A stretch of 64,000 bases of DNA from the NCBI RefSeq assembly GCF_000963005.1, contig NZ_JZHZ01000007.1, positions 1,034,025-1,098,024 of the forward strand, in the 5' to 3' direction. The DNA is from Xanthomonas sp. GPE 39. GTDB taxonomy: Bacteria; Pseudomonadota; Gammaproteobacteria; Xanthomonadales; Xanthomonadaceae. Of this stretch, positions 36,396 to 43,095 are shown piece by piece (within the stretch, counting starts at the first letter, position 1; each line of letters starts with the position of its first letter). A program made the translations under genes and the position numbers. The notes below the pieces were generated by a model that saw only the letters and a program-made list of their open reading frames with translations, searched no databases and had not been told where the DNA came from.

Positions 36396-36471
36396 GTCGA
36401 TCGTTATCGGCATCGTGGTGGTGATCGCCAAGGCGGCCACGTTTTACCTGCTGTATCGCCTATTGTGTTGA
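36382..36471 (+). CDS. Possible 29-residue single-span membrane peptide overlapping glmM
   Basis: GTG 36382, inside the 3' end of glmM in another frame, opens 29 codons reading [20 protein letters not shown] then [10 protein letters not shown] basic N-terminus precedes one clear hydrophobic span of about 18 residues. The frame continues 76 bases past the glmM stop, so translational coupling is possible. No ribosome site is strong and no family is known; this may be chance. Confidence 0.3.
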
Positions 36472-36499
36472 GTGCGGTGTTTGCATCCTTTTGAAGACG

Positions 36500-37453
36500 A
36501 TGACCATTGTTGCCATGACCGCGCGCATTCCCACCTTGGACATCACCCGCTTTGACAGCGACCGCGACGCCTTCGTCGCCGAACTGGGCGCGGCGTACCG
36601 CGAGTGGGGGTTTGCCGGTATCCGTCACCACGGCATCGCACAGGCGCAGATCGATGCTGCCTATGCTGTATTCAAGGCGTTTTTTGCCTTGCCCGAAGCG
36701 GTCAAGCGCAAATACCACGTGCCCGGCGGTGGCGGTGCGCGCGGCTACACCCCTTTTGGCGTAGAAACCGCCAAGGGTGCTCAGCACTTCGACCTGAAAG
36801 AGTTCTGGCATATCGGTCGCGAAATCGCCGACGATGCCAAGCACCGCGAGGTGATGCCGCCTAACGTGTGGCCGAGCGAAGTGCCGGAGTTTCGCGCACA
36901 CGGCTATGGCTTGTACCAGTCGCTGGATCGACTCGGTGCGCGGGTACTGTCCGCGCTGGCGCTGCATATCGGCCTGCCCGAGGACTATTTTGTCGACAAG
37001 ACCGACTCGGGCAATTCGATCCTGCGTCCGATCCATTATCCGCCGATTACTGCCGACGACATCCCCAATGTGCGTGCCGGCGCTCATGAGGACATCAATC
37101 TGATCACGCTGCTAGTCGGGGCTAGCGCCGCTGGTTTGGAAGTGAAGTCCAGGCAGGGCGAATGGGTACCGTTTACCTCCGACGCCGATACCATCGTGGT
37201 CAACATCGGCGATATGCTGCAGCGGCTGACCAATCATGTGTATCCCTCGACCACGCATCGCGTGATCAATCCGCCGGGGGAGCAGGCGCGCGCGCCGCGT
37301 TACTCGGTGCCGTTTTTCCTGCATCCCAACCCGGATTTCCTGATCGACGTGCTGCCTGTGTGCATCAGTGCCGACAATCCCAATCGCTATCCCGAGCCGA
37401 TCACTGCGCATGGCTATCTGGAAGAGCGCCTGCGCGAGATCAATCTGAGGTAA
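36500..37453 (+). CDS. 2-oxoglutarate/Fe(II)-dependent oxygenase, isopenicillin N synthase-like
   Basis: Non-haem iron oxygenase of the isopenicillin N synthase/DIOX superfamily, 317 residues from ATG 36500 (TTG 36491 and ATG 36515 are in frame). The N-terminal DIOX domain starts IPTLDITRFDSDRDAFVAEL and continues WGFAGIRHHGI; the C-terminal 2OG-FeII domain carries HEDINLITLLVG (His and Asp ligands), VYPSTTHRVINPP (distal His) and APRYSVPFF (the Arg-x-Ser that binds 2-oxoglutarate). All cofactor residues are present, so it should be active. Bacterial members are often housekeeping enzymes of unknown substrate. No beta-lactam pathway genes are near. Confidence 0.88.
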   Translation: MTIVAMTARIPTLDITRFDSDRDAFVAELGAAYREWGFAGIRHHGIAQAQIDAAYAVFKAFFALPEAVKRKYHVPGGGGARGYTPFGVETAKGAQHFDLKEFWHIGREIADDAKHREVMPPNVWPSEVPEFRAHGYGLYQSLDRLGARVLSALALHIGLPEDYFVDKTDSGNSILRPIHYPPITADDIPNVRAGAHEDINLITLLVGASAAGLEVKSRQGEWVPFTSDADTIVVNIGDMLQRLTNHVYPSTTHRVINPPGEQARAPRYSVPFFLHPNPDFLIDVLPVCISADNPNRYPEPITAHGYLEERLREINLR

Positions 37454-37609
37454 CCTCGCCCGCAACGCTCCGTGCCGCCGCCGGGACGCCCAGCGGCAGG
37501 AAACGGCCTAAAGCCGGGTCCGGTCACGGCCGATATTGTTGGCAGGTCGCCCTCCACGCGCCGTCCGGAAGGTCCGGGCGCTGCTAGCCGGGCCCGTAGA
37601 GAGGGTGCG
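37454..37609 (+). promoter_or_regulatory. Structured GC-rich leader of the cupredoxin/GGDEF-EAL operon
   Basis: This 156-base region before the operon has several self-complementary segments, including CGGCC (37504-37508) pairing with GGCCG (37528-37532). In order it contains GGGACGC (37483-37489), AGC, CGGCCTAAA and AGGTCGC, which resemble pieces of the c-di-GMP-I (GEMM) riboswitch core. The match is partial: the GAAA tetraloop hairpin and GCAAACC element are not seen. It may equally be chance in GC-rich DNA. Confidence 0.25.
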
Positions 37610-38314
37610 ATGACAAGGCGGACGAGATCCTTCGGGCGGCAAGGTCGCCACTGCTGGCTCGCAGTGGTGCTTGGGCTGGCTGTGTTGCCGGCAGCGGCCA
37701 CGCCGGTCACTGTGGTCGTGACCGATGCCGCTGGGCCGCTGGCCGATGCCGTGGTCAGTCTGCAACCGGCTACGCCGACACGTCAGGCCTCGCCGGCCTC
37801 GTCGGTGACGGCGACGATGGATCAGGTCAACTCGCAGTTCGTGCCTGCTGTGCTGGCGGTGCAGGTCGGTAGCTTGGTGCGCTTTCCCAACCGCGATCAG
37901 ATCCGTCACCAGGTATATTCCTTCTCGCCGGCCAAGCGCTTCGAGCTGCCGCTATACCAGGGCAGCACTGCCAAGCCGGTGCGCTTCGATCAACCGGGCC
38001 TGGTCACGGTGGGCTGCAACATCCATGACTGGATGGTCGGCTACGTGATGGTGCTCGATACCCCGTATTTCGCCGTGACTGGTGCCGACGCGCAGGTGCG
38101 ACTGGACGTGCCGCCCGGCGTATACGAACTGCGGGTATGGCATCCGCGCCTGAGCGGTGCCGGTTATTCGCAGGCGCTGCAGGTGGCGCGTGCCCCGCTG
38201 CGCCAAGCGGTGCTGCTGTCCACCCGCGGGCCGGCGCAGGTCGTCCCGGAGGATCCGCGTATTCGTGCATTGCAGGACAAATTCCGTCGCAGCCAGACGG
38301 CGCCGACGCGATGA
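37610..38314 (+). CDS. Cupredoxin-like periplasmic protein ('methylamine utilization protein' type)
   Basis: Secreted 234-residue protein with a signal peptide ending near LPAAA-TP. Start ATG 37610 is set by GAGAGGG upstream. A carboxypeptidase-regulatory-like beta-sandwich start (VTVVVTDAAGPLADAVVSLQ) is followed by a plastocyanin-like part: FVPAVLAVQVGSLVRFPNRDQIRHQVYSFS, then VGCNIHDWMVGYVMVLDTPYF. His in DQIRHQ plus Cys, His and Met in CNIHDWM (near 136-142) form a plausible type-1 copper site. Such proteins are often labelled methylamine utilization proteins, but no methylamine genes are here. Its TGA overlaps the ATG of the GGDEF-EAL gene. Confidence 0.82.
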   Translation: MTRRTRSFGRQGRHCWLAVVLGLAVLPAAATPVTVVVTDAAGPLADAVVSLQPATPTRQASPASSVTATMDQVNSQFVPAVLAVQVGSLVRFPNRDQIRHQVYSFSPAKRFELPLYQGSTAKPVRFDQPGLVTVGCNIHDWMVGYVMVLDTPYFAVTGADAQVRLDVPPGVYELRVWHPRLSGAGYSQALQVARAPLRQAVLLSTRGPAQVVPEDPRIRALQDKFRRSQTAPTR

Positions 38315-40683
38315 AGCCTTGGCGGTTGCACACCCGCATCGCCGCACTGGTGGTGCTGGTGGTGCTGGCGGCACAGGCGCTGACGTTCTTGGTCGTGCAC
38401 GTGGCGACCAAGCGCAGTGTCGCCGCGCAACTGGATGATGAGCTGCGCACCGGCGAGCTTGTGTGGCATAGCATCGACCAGCGCCGCGACGAGCAATTGT
38501 TGCAGGCCGCCTCGGTGCTTGCCGACGATTTCGGTTTCCGCGCCGCAGTGACCAGTGGTGACGTGCCGACCATGCAGTCGGCGCTGCGTAATCATGCCGC
38601 GCGCGTGCACGCGCCCAGTGCCCTGCTGTTATCGGCCGACGGCCAGTTCCTGGCCGGACTGTCACCGCTGCCGCAGGCGCAACAACTGCGTGCCGTGCAG
38701 CCGCTGTTGCGGCAGGCACAGCGCGACGGCAGCGCGTCTGGCATCGTGGTGCTGGACCGACGCCTCATGCGTCTGGCACTGGTGCAGGTGCTTGCGCCGC
38801 AACGGGTCGGCTGGGTCGCCATCGGCGGTGAATCCGGCGCCGAGCTCGGTCAGGACTTCACCAGCACCACCGGGTTGGATGCGACCTTTTTTAGCATTCA
38901 GGGCACGCCGCATGTGCTGGCCTCGACCCTGGATCCGTTGCGGGCCGAGCAGTTCCAGCAGCAGTTGCAGCGCACGCCGTTGGCACCGACGGCCGCACAG
39001 CCGCTCCTGCTTGGGCAGGCGCGGTACCTCGTGCGGGTGCGACCGGCGTCCGACGAAGGCCGCGTCATGGTCGCGCTGCAGGCATCGCTGGACCGCGCCG
39101 ATGCGCCGTACCGCTTGCTGAAGCTGCGCATTCTGATCCTGGCTGGTGTGGCCACCCTGGCCGCGTTGGTGGTGGCGATCTTCCTGGCGCGTGGAGTCAG
39201 CCGCCCGGTCGCGCAACTGGTCGCGGCGACGCGGCGTATCCAGTACGGCGATTATCAGACGTTGCTGCCGCTGCAAGCCGGCGCCGAGCTGACCGAACTG
39301 GCGAACAGCTTCGGCGCCATGCAGCGCCACATCGCCAGCCGCGAGCAGGACATCCTGCATCAGGCGCGGCACGATGCACTGACCGGATTGCCCAACCGCA
39401 CGGCGCTGCTGCAGCACTTGCAGGCCGTGGTCGAGGCGTGCCATAGCGATGCCAGCACTGCGGCTGTGTTAGTGCTGGACATGGAACGTTTCAAGGAAAT
39501 CAATGATAGTTTCGGCCATGATTTCGCCGATCAGGTGCTGGTCCATACCGGGCGCCGGCTGGAACAGGCGGTACGTGCGCCGGATCTGGTCGGTCGGCTC
39601 GGCAGCGATGAATTCATGGTGGTGCTGGCGCGCTGCGATGCCGCAGAGGTGGATGCCTATGCCGCCGGGTTGCTGGCGCAACTGCGGCACCCGCTGATCC
39701 TGCCGCAGGCGCGCATCCTGGCCGATGCGAGCATCGGCATCGCACTGATTCCCGCGCATGGCGCCGATGCCGACACCCTGATGCGCCGCGCCGATATTGC
39801 CCGTCAGCAGGCGCGGCAACTCGGCACTGGTGCATCCGTGTACCGCGACGGGCAGGACGAGCAGCACCTGCGCCGCCTGCGCCTGACCGGCGATCTGCGC
39901 CAGGCGATCGCGCGCGGCGAGATGTCGCTGCGCTTCCAGCCGAAGATCTGCCTGGCGCGCGGCGAGGTCGAACAGGTGGAGGTATTGCTGCGCTGGCAGC
40001 ATCCGCAGCTCGGCCCGATCGGGCCGGACGAGTTCATTGCGTTGGCCGAGCACTCCGGTGCGATCCAGCAGCTCACCCAGTTCGTGCTCGACGAGGCGAT
40101 GCGCCTGCAGGCGCTGTGGCGCGGTCAGGGCCTGGATCTTGGTCTGGCGATCAACCTCTCGGCGCTGGACCTCAACGATCCGGGCTTGCCGGCCTTCGTC
40201 AGCGGTTGCCTGGCTCGGTATGGCCTGTCTGCGCCGCGCTTGACCCTGGAGCTGACCGAAAGCGCGCTGATGCGCGATGTCGAGCACGCCCTGCACATGC
40301 TGCAGCAACTGCGGCGCTGCGGCGTGCGCCTGTCCATCGACGACTTCGGCACGGGGTATTCGTCGCTGGCGCAGCTTAAGCGCATGCCGGTTCAGGAGTT
40401 GAAGATCGACAAGAGTTTCGTATTGCAGTTGGCCGAAGGCAGCGACGACGCGGTGATCGTCCGCAGTACCATCGACCTGGGGCACCACATGGGCTTGAAG
40501 GTGGTTGCCGAGGGCGTGGAACATGCGGCGGCCGAGGCTTTGCTGCGCGCCTACGGCTGCGACATGGCGCAGGGCTATCTGTATGCTCAGCCACTCGACC
40601 CGCCAGCATTGCTGGCCTGGTGCGCTCAGCGCGCGGAGGCGGGCGCGGTAACGTCTGCGCCGATCAAGGAGACTTCCCGATGA
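38311..40683 (+). CDS. Membrane GGDEF-EAL protein with periplasmic sensor; likely c-di-GMP phosphodiesterase
   Basis: Inner-membrane signalling protein of 790 residues. Two membrane segments (about 8-30 and 271-293) enclose a periplasmic sensor of about 240 residues; a HAMP-like linker follows. The GGDEF domain (about 350-500) has the signature degenerated to GSDEF near 430, while RxxD (RAPD), five residues before it, keeps the c-di-GMP-binding I-site. The EAL domain (about 520-775) keeps EVLLRWQHP, ELTESALM, DDFGTGYSSLAQLKRMP, KIDKSFV, VAEGVE and QGYL, so the metal and catalytic residues seem intact. It should therefore break down c-di-GMP, with the GGDEF part as a regulator. It is coupled by ATGA overlaps to the genes on both sides. 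Confidence 0.92.
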   Translation: MKPWRLHTRIAALVVLVVLAAQALTFLVVHVATKRSVAAQLDDELRTGELVWHSIDQRRDEQLLQAASVLADDFGFRAAVTSGDVPTMQSALRNHAARVHAPSALLLSADGQFLAGLSPLPQAQQLRAVQPLLRQAQRDGSASGIVVLDRRLMRLALVQVLAPQRVGWVAIGGESGAELGQDFTSTTGLDATFFSIQGTPHVLASTLDPLRAEQFQQQLQRTPLAPTAAQPLLLGQARYLVRVRPASDEGRVMVALQASLDRADAPYRLLKLRILILAGVATLAALVVAIFLARGVSRPVAQLVAATRRIQYGDYQTLLPLQAGAELTELANSFGAMQRHIASREQDILHQARHDALTGLPNRTALLQHLQAVVEACHSDASTAAVLVLDMERFKEINDSFGHDFADQVLVHTGRRLEQAVRAPDLVGRLGSDEFMVVLARCDAAEVDAYAAGLLAQLRHPLILPQARILADASIGIALIPAHGADADTLMRRADIARQQARQLGTGASVYRDGQDEQHLRRLRLTGDLRQAIARGEMSLRFQPKICLARGEVEQVEVLLRWQHPQLGPIGPDEFIALAEHSGAIQQLTQFVLDEAMRLQALWRGQGLDLGLAINLSALDLNDPGLPAFVSGCLARYGLSAPRLTLELTESALMRDVEHALHMLQQLRRCGVRLSIDDFGTGYSSLAQLKRMPVQELKIDKSFVLQLAEGSDDAVIVRSTIDLGHHMGLKVVAEGVEHAAAEALLRAYGCDMAQGYLYAQPLDPPALLAWCAQRAEAGAVTSAPIKETSR

Positions 40684-41549
40684 CCCGAACCCGGCTTCCA
40701 CGAAGTGCGTTGCTGGTGGCTGCGGCCTTGCTGCCGGCGTTGGCCTGGGGCGGGCAGGGACGGCTGCTGGCCACCGGTGGTGCTTCCAGCGTGGAGGGCA
40801 GCGGCGGTGGCGGCATCGTGCCGTGGGCGAGCTTGTCCGGCTACGGCACGCGCGATCAGGATGGTGCGGTGCTGTTCGCCACACATTTGGACAGCGGCGA
40901 TTACCGGCTGGACGTGCAGGGTGCGGCGCTGACCCTGGACAACCGTCTGGAACTGTCGCTGGCGCGGCAGCGCCTGGACCTGGGTACGTTGCAGCGGCGC
41001 CTGGCGCTGCCGTGGAATGCGCTCGGCCAGGACGTGGTCGGTGCAAAGTTGCGGCTGGGCGGCGATCTGGTCTATGGGGCCGCGCCGCAGGTCGCGCTGG
41101 GCGTTCAGTACAAGCGGCTGCGCGACGGCACCCTGCCGCTTGCGATCGGCGCGCGCGCTGACCATGGTACCGACGTCTATCTCAGCGCCGCCAAGCTGTG
41201 GCTGGATGCGGCTGGTGGCTACCAGTTGCTGGTCAATGGCACGGTGCGCGCCACCCGCGCTAACCAGACCGGGTTGCTCGGTTTCGGCGGCGACCGTGGC
41301 AATGCGTACCGGCTGATGGCCGAGGCCAGCGTTGCGGTGGTGCTGGATCCGTCCTGGGTACTTGGCCTGGAATACCGGCAGAAGCCGGACAACCTCGGAT
41401 TCGCCCGCGAGCAGGCCTGGGCGGACGCGTTCGTGGCATGGTTCCCCAACAAGCGCGTGTCTGTGGTCGGCGCCTGGGCCGAGCTCGGGGACGTGGCCAC
41501 CCTGCGCGACCAGCGCGGGCCCTATCTCTCTCTGCAGGTGGCGTTCTGA
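40680..41549 (+). CDS. DUF3034 family outer-membrane-type protein
   Basis: Secreted 289-residue protein of unknown function, matching the DUF3034 family pattern. The signal peptide (about 1-24) ends LPALAWG-GQ and mature protein starts GRLLATGGASSVEGSGGGGIVPWASLSGYGT. The rest is made of alternating beta strands with long Gly-rich turns, and it ends in Phe (LSLQVAF), the usual signal of outer-membrane beta-barrels. It begins within the stop of the GGDEF-EAL gene and is followed one base after its stop by the truncated-haemoglobin gene. Function is unknown; context suggests a role in the same envelope system. Confidence 0.78.
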   Translation: MTRTRLPRSALLVAAALLPALAWGGQGRLLATGGASSVEGSGGGGIVPWASLSGYGTRDQDGAVLFATHLDSGDYRLDVQGAALTLDNRLELSLARQRLDLGTLQRRLALPWNALGQDVVGAKLRLGGDLVYGAAPQVALGVQYKRLRDGTLPLAIGARADHGTDVYLSAAKLWLDAAGGYQLLVNGTVRATRANQTGLLGFGGDRGNAYRLMAEASVAVVLDPSWVLGLEYRQKPDNLGFAREQAWADAFVAWFPNKRVSVVGAWAELGDVATLRDQRGPYLSLQVAF

Positions 41550-41550
41550 C

Positions 41551-41997
41551 ATGATTCGGCCGATGCGTGTACTGACCCCGATCCTGCTGGCGACGGCAGT
41601 GCTGTTGGCCGGTTGTGCCAGCGCTCCGCCGCCGCCGCCGCGCACGCTGTACACCGACCTGGGCGGCCAGCCCGGCATCGATGCGCTGGTGGAGACGCTG
41701 CTGTCGCGCATCGCCGACGACCCACGGATCGTCCAGCACTTCGCCCGGGTCAACATCGTGATGCTGAACCAGCGCCTGGTACAGAAGTTCTGCCACCTCA
41801 GTGATGGCCCGTGCGCCGACACCGCCAAGCCGATGAAGCAGGCGCACCAGCATTTGCCGATCCACGAGGCGGACTTCAACGCGCTGGTCGAGGATCTGGT
41901 GTGGGCGATGGACCAGCGCGGCATCCCACGTCGCACCCAGAACCGGCTGCTGGCAAGGCTGGCTCCGCTGCATGGCGATATCGTCAATCAGCCATAG
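41551..41997 (+). CDS. Group 1 truncated haemoglobin lipoprotein
   Basis: 148-residue globin with a lipoprotein signal: RVLTPILLATAVLLAGCASA has the lipobox LAGC (Cys about 22), followed by a Pro-rich spacer PPPPPRT. The trHb fold starts LYTDLGGQPGIDALVETLLSRI and includes the proximal His region PMKQAHQHLPIHEADFNALVEDL (His about 98-100). Most truncated globins are cytoplasmic; a lipid-anchored one places haem in the periplasm, where it could sense or detoxify O2, NO or redox state. It is the last gene of the four-gene operon. Identification of the fold is strong; the role is inferred. Confidence 0.87.
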   Translation: MIRPMRVLTPILLATAVLLAGCASAPPPPPRTLYTDLGGQPGIDALVETLLSRIADDPRIVQHFARVNIVMLNQRLVQKFCHLSDGPCADTAKPMKQAHQHLPIHEADFNALVEDLVWAMDQRGIPRRTQNRLLARLAPLHGDIVNQP

Positions 41998-42059
41998 GCG
42001 CGTGCCACGCTTCCCGCCGCCCACCGCAGCATGCGGATGGCGGCGGCCGCCGCCGGACG

Positions 42060-42252
42060 GGTAGGCGGTGCGCTATTCCACCGATCACGATGTCCACGGG
42101 TAGCTGTGGACGCAGCTCCTCGGCCAGCGCTGCGCGGCGTGCGCTCAGGATCAGCGGGATGCCACGTCCGCCGTATTCGCGGGCGATTTCGCGGACGATG
42201 CCGCTGGATGCGCCGGTAAGCAGGGCGTAGCCCTGGAGGCGTGGGCATGGTG
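42060..42252 (-). pseudogene. Short-chain dehydrogenase/reductase remnant
   Basis: Minus strand reads QGYALLTGASSGIVREIAREYGGRGIPLILSARR followed by ALAEELRPQLPVDIVIG, the N-terminal Rossmann segment of a short-chain dehydrogenase. The glycine motif TGASSGIG is altered to TGASSGIV. The frame lacks its start: an ATGCCCACGCCTCCAG stretch lies one base out of frame, which points to a single-base insertion. The rest of the usual 250-residue enzyme is missing. It lies between the globin gene and tpiA. Confidence 0.75.
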
Positions 42253-42339
42253 GTGCGGTCTCGGTGCGGGGAGCTGGGATGGCGGGCCTTGGTGCCGCAT
42301 CGGCTATTCTTTGGGTAAATTTTGCCGAGAAATGCGCCG

Positions 42340-43095
42340 ATGCGACGCAAGATCGTAGCTGCAAATTGGAAATTGCATGGCACTGGCCAGGTTGCCCACG
42401 CGCTGCTGCAGGCGGTGGTCGCAGGGCTGTCCGACGATGCGGTGGAGGTGGTGATTCTGCCGCCATTGCCGTATCTGGCCGGCCTGATCCAGACCTTCCA
42501 GCGTCCTGCGCTGCGTTTCGGAGCCCAGGATGTCAGTAGCAACGTGCAGGGCGCCTATACGGGTGAGGTGTCGGCGGCGATGCTGGTCGATGTCGGTGCC
42601 CACTATGGGGTGGTTGGGCACTCGGAGCGGCGTCAGTATCACCATGAGAGTAGCGAGCTGGTGGCGCGCAAGTTCGCCGCGGCCAGCGCTGCCGGGCTAC
42701 GCCCGATCCTGTGCGTGGGCGAGACCCTGGAGCAGCGTCAGGCCGAGCAGACCGAGGCTGCGATCGCCGCGCAACTGACGCCGGTGCTGTCCCTGGTCGG
42801 GGGCGAGGGCTTCGCCAACGCGGTGATCTCCTACGAGCCGGTGTGGGCAATCGGTACCGGACGTACCGCCAGCCCTGCGCAGGCGCAGGCGGTACATGCC
42901 TTCATTCGTGGCGAAGTGGCTGTCCGCGATGCTAGAATCGCCGATTCGCTGCCGATCCTGTATGGCGGCAGTGTCAAGCCCGATAACGCCGCCGAGCTGT
43001 TCGCACAGCCCGATGTCGATGGCGGGCTGGTCGGCGGCGCCTCGCTGGATGCCGCGCAGTTCCTGGCCATCGTGCAAGCGGCGGCCTCCCGTTAA
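42340..43095 (+). CDS. tpiA: Triosephosphate isomerase
   Basis: Interconverts dihydroxyacetone phosphate and glyceraldehyde-3-phosphate in glycolysis. ATG 42340 gives 251 residues. Catalytic residues are clear: Asn and Lys in VAANWKLHG, His in YGVVGHSERRQ, Glu in ISYEPVWAIGTGR. YGGSVKPDNAAEL and DGGLVGGASLDAAQF bind phosphate. It is followed by secG, a linkage conserved in many gammaproteobacteria. Confidence 0.98.
   Translation: MRRKIVAANWKLHGTGQVAHALLQAVVAGLSDDAVEVVILPPLPYLAGLIQTFQRPALRFGAQDVSSNVQGAYTGEVSAAMLVDVGAHYGVVGHSERRQYHHESSELVARKFAAASAAGLRPILCVGETLEQRQAEQTEAAIAAQLTPVLSLVGGEGFANAVISYEPVWAIGTGRTASPAQAQAVHAFIRGEVAVRDARIADSLPILYGGSVKPDNAAELFAQPDVDGGLVGGASLDAAQFLAIVQAAASR

Follow-up and report, generated by a model that had tools for sequence, protein, structure and literature searches.

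A cupredoxin-sensor pair and a DUF3034-globin pair in a four-gene module of Xanthomonas sp. GPE 39: a candidate copper-protein-coupled envelope receptor

Analysis of a 64,000-nucleotide stretch of the genome of Xanthomonas sp. GPE 39 (contig NZ_JZHZ01000007.1, positions 1,034,025 to 1,098,024; hereafter the window) showed the presence of a compact run of four genes, encoding a cupredoxin-like periplasmic protein (gene 1), a membrane GGDEF-EAL protein with a periplasmic sensor domain (gene 2), an outer-membrane barrel of the family DUF3034 (gene 3) and a truncated haemoglobin lipoprotein (gene 4). Judging from gene neighbourhoods, the four genes fall into two pairs that can occur apart, namely, the cupredoxin with the sensor and DUF3034 with the globin. 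The cupredoxin and the sensor very probably form one functional unit, in which the cupredoxin is likely to be the input partner and not the output. That the operon is a tripartite envelope receptor, working in a manner similar to YfiBNR, with a protein of the blue-copper type as its messenger in the periplasm, is a reasonably probable reading. The genes are located as follows (compared loci and genomes bear the letters L and G, and open reading frames in unannotated loci are our own gene calls).

37610-38314, +, gene 1: cupredoxin-like periplasmic protein, labelled 'methylamine utilization protein' in the records of relatives; 234 amino acids, apparent signal peptide by eye
38311-40683, +, gene 2: dCache-HAMP-GGDEF-EAL membrane protein; 790 amino acids, Pfam
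40680-41549, +, gene 3: DUF3034 outer-membrane beta-barrel; 289 amino acids, Pfam and structure model
41551-41997, +, gene 4: truncated haemoglobin lipoprotein of the group 1 type; Pfam Bac_globin

The coordinates (37610-41997), the + strand, the ATGA overlaps at the cupredoxin/GGDEF-EAL (38311-38314) and GGDEF-EAL/DUF3034 (40680-40683) junctions and the one-base gap (41550) between the DUF3034 and globin genes were all verified as described in an earlier sequence-only reading of the window, and the operon-like layout proposed there is supported. A scan of 36400-42400 found no promoter-like sites, and terminator-like sites were only as frequent in this interval as in shuffled sequence.

The same reading had supposed that DUF3034 and the globin accompany the EAL gene in other genomes, and this was borne out in a set of 81 loci, comprising the window and its 80 best DUF3034 relatives among the matches listed, which are the closest relatives and not a random sample. 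The full set of cupredoxin, GGDEF-EAL protein, DUF3034 and globin, in the same order and on the same strand, was found at 74 of these loci, including two at which a second EAL gene, further downstream, accounted for the nearest sensor score (72 + 2). A nearby sensor-EAL gene is absent from two loci (L100 and L101), and five retain, of the set, just DUF3034 and the globin in the same orientation (L087, L088, L090 and, near contig ends, L042 and L046). Because the full set recurs in the same arrangement at 74/81 loci, the grouping does not appear to be a matter of chance. The closest DUF3034 relatives in named genomes belong to Xanthomonas (8 loci, 77-82% identity). On Caballeronia plasmids (betaproteobacteria) the order is DUF3034-globin-cupredoxin-EAL, and on a Novosphingobium plasmid (alphaproteobacteria) the EAL and cupredoxin genes are divergent from DUF3034-globin. 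In one genome (G085, locus L162) the frames of the module are interrupted, with DUF3034 in two pieces and the EAL gene in three, owing to decay or an assembly error. In seven Pseudomonas loci (L040, L041, L043, L049, L050, L204 and L205) a second EAL gene directly adjoins the module; at L204 and L205 it encodes a sensor-GGDEF-EAL protein.

Each pair also occurs in the absence of the other. Genomes G280 and G358 contain DUF3034 and the globin, and the cupredoxin and sensor models have no match in them; conversely, the sensor lies near the cupredoxin and DUF3034 is absent at 28 of 75 cupredoxin loci. In four genomes with DUF3034-globin and no nearby cupredoxin (those of L087, L088, L090 and L046, the contig of the last ending 2.2 kb upstream), a cupredoxin gene and a sensor gene adjoin each other at another place. 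An inseparable four-gene complex is therefore ruled out, by G280 and G358 and also by the divergent DUF3034 genes of L174-L177, which have no module partner within the stretches fetched. The sequence-only reading had copper or haem state being passed to the sensor. The link of the copper protein to the sensor emerges strengthened, and the haem input is less well supported than copper, because the DUF3034-globin and cupredoxin-sensor pairs separate.

The cupredoxin model was run on 369 genomes of the class, giving 108 matches (84 of them under 130 bits), and on 398 genomes of the phylum, giving 59 matches in 53 genomes at E 1e-30. Outputs of the sensor within 3.5 kb were counted at 75 cupredoxin loci, a 76th (L222) being omitted since its contig ends there. 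GGDEF and/or EAL domains were found at 54 loci, class III cyclases at six, histidine kinases at three and Ser/Thr kinases at two, and ten loci have no sensor. Examples examined with Pfam are class III cyclases at L181, L183 and L185, a histidine kinase at L184, hybrid histidine kinases at L253 and L254, and Ser/Thr kinases at L166 and L191; at L183 and L254 dCache was not called by Pfam, and the sensor was assigned via our own model. The link of cupredoxin to sensor is strengthened because the two genes remain paired across exchanges of the output domain. The supposed route from the sensor to cyclic diguanylate (c-di-GMP) is changed in that the system is not specific to c-di-GMP; a c-di-GMP-only reading is ruled out by the swaps among cyclase, histidine kinase and Ser/Thr kinase. 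On the cupredoxin tree the five output states need 13 changes, compared with a mean of 20.2 after shuffling, which suggests repeated exchange or loss of the output; this suggestion is weakened because 28 of 72 inner branches have support below 80%.

In the phylum sample the sensor lies within 1.5 kb of the cupredoxin in 48 of 59 cases, and one of the other 11 is cut by a contig end. In chosen genomes, a set of 41 that left out G107, the sensor was detected (E 1e-10) in all 27 cupredoxin-positive ones (out of 53) and in none of 14 negatives. The ten loci with no nearby sensor come from nine genomes, eight of which have a sensor gene elsewhere (G348 at 106 bits only). Most of the genomes examined in which the two genes are apart retain both, as do G478, G494, G724, G509 and the genome of L101. 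At 53 EAL-coupled loci, distances of the cupredoxin correlate with those of the sensor at r 0.63, and with those of the GGDEF and EAL domains of the same polypeptide at 0.43 and 0.38; the 95% bootstrap interval of the difference between the sensor and EAL correlations is 0.08-0.40 (n=53). Sensor relatives fused to GGDEF with no EAL domain were found at L258 and L259, with no cupredoxin in the fetched stretch; these genomes also hold cupredoxin-sensor pairs. A solitary sensor-EAL gene (L257, 6487-11689, -) lies by tpiA- and glmM-like genes (by eye), surroundings like those of the window module.

Outer-membrane partners vary as well. DUF3034 is present in 18 of the 369 genomes of the class, and the globin adjoins it in 12 of the 18. 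Loci from which DUF3034 is absent often have another barrel-like gene, belonging to Porin_5 (L191) or to families unnamed by Pfam at its cut-off, and at L166 Porin_5 occurs together with DUF3034. Genes of the non-DUF3034 families were called barrels from signal-peptide-like starts, mostly aromatic C-termini and weak Pfam matches, one of them a match to MtrB/PioB below the cut-off.

Co-occurrence, which does not depend on gene order, speaks for the cupredoxin-sensor pair: in the 369 genomes of the class, cupredoxins of at least 130 bits were found in 22, sensors of at least 180 bits in 23 and both in 20 (Fisher 7.5e-28). A number of results weigh against the receptor reading or lessen the force of the counts. 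The Fisher value is overstated since the genomes are related, and genes next to the cupredoxin served to build the sensor model, which deprives its score cut-off of independence. The exceptions to the co-occurrence are two genomes with the cupredoxin and no strong sensor (G107, and G348 with its 106-bit sensor elsewhere) and three with the reverse (G117, G171 and G312); G107 contains cupredoxin, globin and DUF3034 and has no sensor match at all. No cupredoxin lies within 3.5 kb of three of 25 strong sensors. Among the 84 cupredoxin matches below 130 bits, no more than 12 lie within 3.5 kb of a sensor, ten of them at 60-130 bits and two below 60 bits, and the other 72 are unpaired; one adjacency tally covered 76 of the 108 cupredoxin matches (52 of those below 130 bits) and 48 sensor matches, and none of the remaining 32, compared separately, was adjacent. 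Because these 12 weaker cupredoxins have a sensor nearby, the pairing nevertheless extends past close cupredoxin homologues. At 35 loci with all parts the correlation of cupredoxin with sensor (0.65) is close to that with EAL (0.58), and that with the globin is higher (0.68). Some barrel-family gene, DUF3034 counted, lies within 4.5 kb of the cupredoxin at 64 of 75 loci, a descriptive count that has no background rate and whose non-DUF3034 families were defined from these same loci; no recognised barrel was found at the other 11.

Gene 1 has no match at E 0.001 in Pfam and NCBIfam, and a match to CarboxypepD_reg (E 0.0037) is sub-threshold. Its AlphaFold model (51 rows) has a mean predicted local distance difference test score (pLDDT) of 90.2, and a Foldseek search with this model returned purple cupredoxin (E 9.1e-7), followed by amicyanins, and also pseudoazurin and plastocyanin. 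Based on the model and these matches, gene 1 is predicted to have a cupredoxin fold. Its predicted type-1 copper ligands are located as follows.

37907-38035, +: H100 (37907-37909), C136 (38015-38017), H139 (38024-38026) and M142 (38033-38035)

All four residues are kept in 75 of 75 homologues, across every output class, and in another alignment in 79 to 81 rows. The copper site recognised in the motif CNIHDWM can thus be completed to a full and invariant type-1 ligand set, His, Cys, His and Met, with a CxxHxxM spacing that we take to be that of amicyanin. No YfiR-type family was matched by gene 1 in Pfam at E up to 1, where the filters remove most matches above 0.1. Concerning the methylamine label, PF02975 (methylamine dehydrogenase light chain) had no genome match, and no positive control gave a match either. 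A di-haem CCP/MauG gene (Pfam; L253, 6984-7994, -) sits between a distant cupredoxin and the hybrid-kinase sensor of that cupredoxin, and such a neighbour is a possible source of the label. More distant cupredoxins (L260, L261, L262 and L278) adjoin NO reductase/oxidase-, cytochrome c- and molybdoenzyme-like genes (by eye).

Gene 2 contains the Pfam domains dCache_3 (28.8 bits, cut-off 25.7), HAMP, GGDEF and EAL, which supports the earlier description of an EAL protein with a large sensor domain in the periplasm.

38323-39180, +: periplasmic dCache_3-type sensor flanked by transmembrane segments, the putative partner that stays with the cupredoxin (sensor model, adjacency, co-occurrence)
39181-39333, +: HAMP linker, residues 291-341 (Pfam)
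39364-39828, +: GGDEF domain with the motif GSDEF (Pfam)
39892-40593, +: EAL phosphodiesterase domain (Pfam)

Residues E557, N615, E647, D677, D678, K698 and E734, presumably the catalytic residues of the EAL domain, are kept in 84 of 84 aligned rows, one row per locus with the best EAL match. The GGDEF motif is intact in at least 14 of the 84 rows among the motif types listed and altered in many relatives. Because the EAL residues are conserved and the GGDEF motif is altered, gene 2 is expected to encode a phosphodiesterase; its GSDEF motif disfavours a diguanylate cyclase. The sensor domain is poorly conserved, with one invariant column in 25 rows. Two HAMP proteins are listed in the available part of a 2016 survey of Xanthomonas GGDEF-EAL proteins, and neither could be matched to gene 2 (PMC4823724).

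Gene 3 belongs to DUF3034 (366 bits, cut-off 25). Its structure model is a 12-strand barrel with a mean pLDDT of 78.8; residues 18-49 are below 50, and the N-terminal GGGxxPW stretch is conserved, with low model confidence. Foldseek placed FapF first and also returned NanC, OmpG and KdgM, and all of the 50 matches listed are titled outer-membrane barrels or complexes containing one. With its antiparallel strands, a signal peptide (by eye) and a C-terminal Phe, the product is predicted to be of the outer-membrane type, in agreement with the sequence-only reading. Searches of the open-access literature yielded no function assigned to DUF3034 or to the cupredoxin family of gene 1; the name DUF3034 turned up in two papers, once in each.

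Gene 4 matches Bac_globin (51 bits, cut-off 21) and carries a lipobox, LAGC, with the Cys at 41614-41616. Alignment with HbN places the proximal His99 at 41845-41847; the product also has a Cys81/Cys88 pair and an apolar distal pocket (L51, L72 and L76). In the module globins adjoining DUF3034 (123 rows, three of them repeats, hence 120 distinct), the F8 His is present in 120 of 120 and each of the two cysteines in 119; L, V, I or M occupies B10 in 117, Tyr in two and Asn in one, and E11 is non-polar (L, F, I or M) in all. At 76 of the 81 loci the globin matched a lipobox pattern, which is crude and passes over at least two lipoboxes evident to the eye. The product therefore appears to be a secreted globin of the haem type, as was supposed earlier. 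The apolar pocket should hold O2 poorly, and an ordinary HbN-type NO dioxygenase is ruled out by this pocket. The pocket is not confined to the module: Tyr B10 occurs in only two of 30 further globin rows, 28 of which are not beside DUF3034 and some of which are the same gene present in two loci, and for this reason the apolar pocket is a trait of a wider globin subfamily. At E 0.001 the globin model has matches in 127 of the 369 genomes, and the family is therefore broad; matches of at least 120 bits are limited to 17 genomes, 13 of which also have DUF3034.

The simplest account of these data is a receptor with a cupredoxin input, exchangeable outputs and exchangeable outer-membrane partners. 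The periplasmic cupredoxin would bind one copper ion, and its redox or loading state would govern its docking on the dCache domain. The docking would be relayed via HAMP and would alter the activity of the EAL phosphodiesterase, and hence the level of c-di-GMP. The DUF3034 barrel and the globin lipoprotein may constitute an outer-membrane unit that sequesters or redox-charges the cupredoxin; its putative haem would not be a stable store of O2 but would react with NO, CO or an oxidant. Because the copper ligands are invariant, copper redox or loading state is the favoured signal, and a signal of redox or copper nature is slightly more probable than not. Involvement of NO or another gas via the globin is doubtful; gas reactivity is a secondary possibility, limited to the version with DUF3034.

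The invariance of the four ligands (75/75) would agree with sensing of copper availability, in which the cupredoxin acts as an apo/holo reporter of periplasmic copper with no redox event, and a receptor with varied outputs would fit a general metal cue. However, no copper export or import gene was found among the named products of three annotated loci, the neighbourhoods not having been tallied for copper genes, and the linked haem globin would be left unexplained; this explanation seems unlikely. Two predicted redox cofactors next to an outer-membrane barrel may instead indicate an electron-transfer or detoxification unit, formed by the barrel, the haem lipoprotein and the cupredoxin, which the sensor and its output merely report on or regulate. 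The NO-reductase/oxidase- and cytochrome-like genes (by eye) and the MauG/CCP gene (Pfam) beside distant cupredoxins, as well as the weak MtrB/PioB match of a partner barrel, are in line with such a unit, but at 28 of 75 loci the cupredoxin and the sensor do without DUF3034, and one haem and one copper, as predicted from the module's own genes, would make a poor conduit. We regard it as quite improbable.

Very improbable, in our estimation, is nutrient sensing, in which the barrel would admit a small molecule bound by the dCache domain or by the cupredoxin-like fold with its carboxypeptidase-regulatory-like flanks, and copper would be structural. Small ligands are usual for dCache domains, the sub-threshold CarboxypepD_reg match would account for the flanks, and barrels of several families substitute for each other; against this, a complete invariant type-1 ligand set typifies redox proteins, and the sensor domain has a single invariant column.

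If this reading is correct, a copper protein of the electron-transfer type serves as a signalling partner, the occurrence of one input unit with four output chemistries is explained, and periplasmic redox, copper or NO is linked to the control of c-di-GMP in many environmental and plant-associated bacteria. DUF3034 and the cupredoxin family of gene 1 both gain a testable function. More tentatively, and at somewhat less than even chances, the loci may represent widespread, undescribed 'cupredoxin-coupled receptors', in which a dCache receptor takes its signal from a dedicated blue copper protein in the periplasm, this one input unit has been connected in evolution with enzymes of c-di-GMP turnover, class III cyclases, two-component signalling and Ser/Thr kinases, and an interchangeable outer-membrane barrel, DUF3034 with a haem lipoprotein in the present module, supplies or withdraws the copper protein; this would be a general route for second messengers to read the electron or copper status of the envelope. 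No prior description of the system was found in the open-access literature, where absence is weak evidence. In a review on c-di-GMP sensing, the word 'copper' occurs 0 times in the main text, and globins are treated as globin-coupled sensors in its available part (PMC8846402).

The module is preceded by the gene of a 2-oxoglutarate (2OG)-Fe(II) oxygenase (DIOX_N and 2OG-FeII_Oxy, Pfam; 36491-37453, +), which stops about 160 bases 5' of the cupredoxin gene. Another 2OG oxygenase, of the PKHD type, is likewise located 5' of the cupredoxin gene at L186 (Pfam) and L226 (by eye). The open reading frame 41984-42466 (-), between the globin gene and tpiA, resembles a remnant N-terminus of a short-chain dehydrogenase (TGASSGI motif, by eye).

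Among characterized proteins, amicyanin, pseudoazurin and plastocyanin share with gene 1 the fold, as predicted, and the copper loop of the CxxHxxM type; gene 1 differs in having additional beta elements at its flanks and a longer C-terminus, and its partner, by gene linkage, would be a receptor and not a dehydrogenase. Gene 4 shares the family and the proximal histidine with the group 1 truncated haemoglobin HbN, but is a predicted lipoprotein with two near-invariant cysteines and lacks TyrB10/GlnE11. In the alignments of gene 4 with its three best HbN matches, these show Phe at 33 and/or Val at 58, and we take them to be engineered mutants. In the systems NspS-MbaA and ScrABC of Vibrio a periplasmic binding protein likewise controls a membrane GGDEF-EAL protein; the input there is of the solute-binding type and not a copper protein, and neither an outer-membrane barrel nor a globin is known to take part.

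Periplasmic redox alters biofilm formation through a GGDEF-EAL protein in Salmonella, where DsbA/DsbB-dependent control acts via STM3615 (YhjK); the chemistry of that system is disulfide-based, and a cupredoxin partner is unmentioned in the available part of the source (PMC4143323). Extracytoplasmic Cache sensing likewise depends on a cofactor for redox or gas in the c-haem Cache (DUF3365) NO sensors, in which, according to the available part of the source, the haem lies inside the Cache domain (PMC12889525), whereas here the cofactors would sit on separate proteins.

The closest system is YfiBNR (TpbB) of Pseudomonas, which also combines an outer-membrane partner, a periplasmic regulator and an inner-membrane HAMP-linked c-di-GMP enzyme in one operon. 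According to the available parts of two reports, outputs of the YfiR-YfiN core are swapped to GGDEF-EAL proteins and histidine kinases, and its outer-membrane partner varies (PMC3375315, PMC4887326). In YfiBNR the enzyme is bound and inhibited by the regulator, and the regulator is sequestered by the outer-membrane partner. The window module likewise has a HAMP-linked membrane enzyme with a periplasmic domain (dCache_3, HAMP, GGDEF, EAL), but its receptor domain is of the dCache_3 type and its enzyme of the EAL type, a cupredoxin replaces YfiR as the periplasmic protein, and the outer-membrane parts are a DUF3034 barrel and a globin lipoprotein, with no OmpA/PAL-like YfiB. Since its parts do not match YfiB or YfiR, the module is, by analogy of organization, a probable functional analogue of YfiBNR and not a member of that system.

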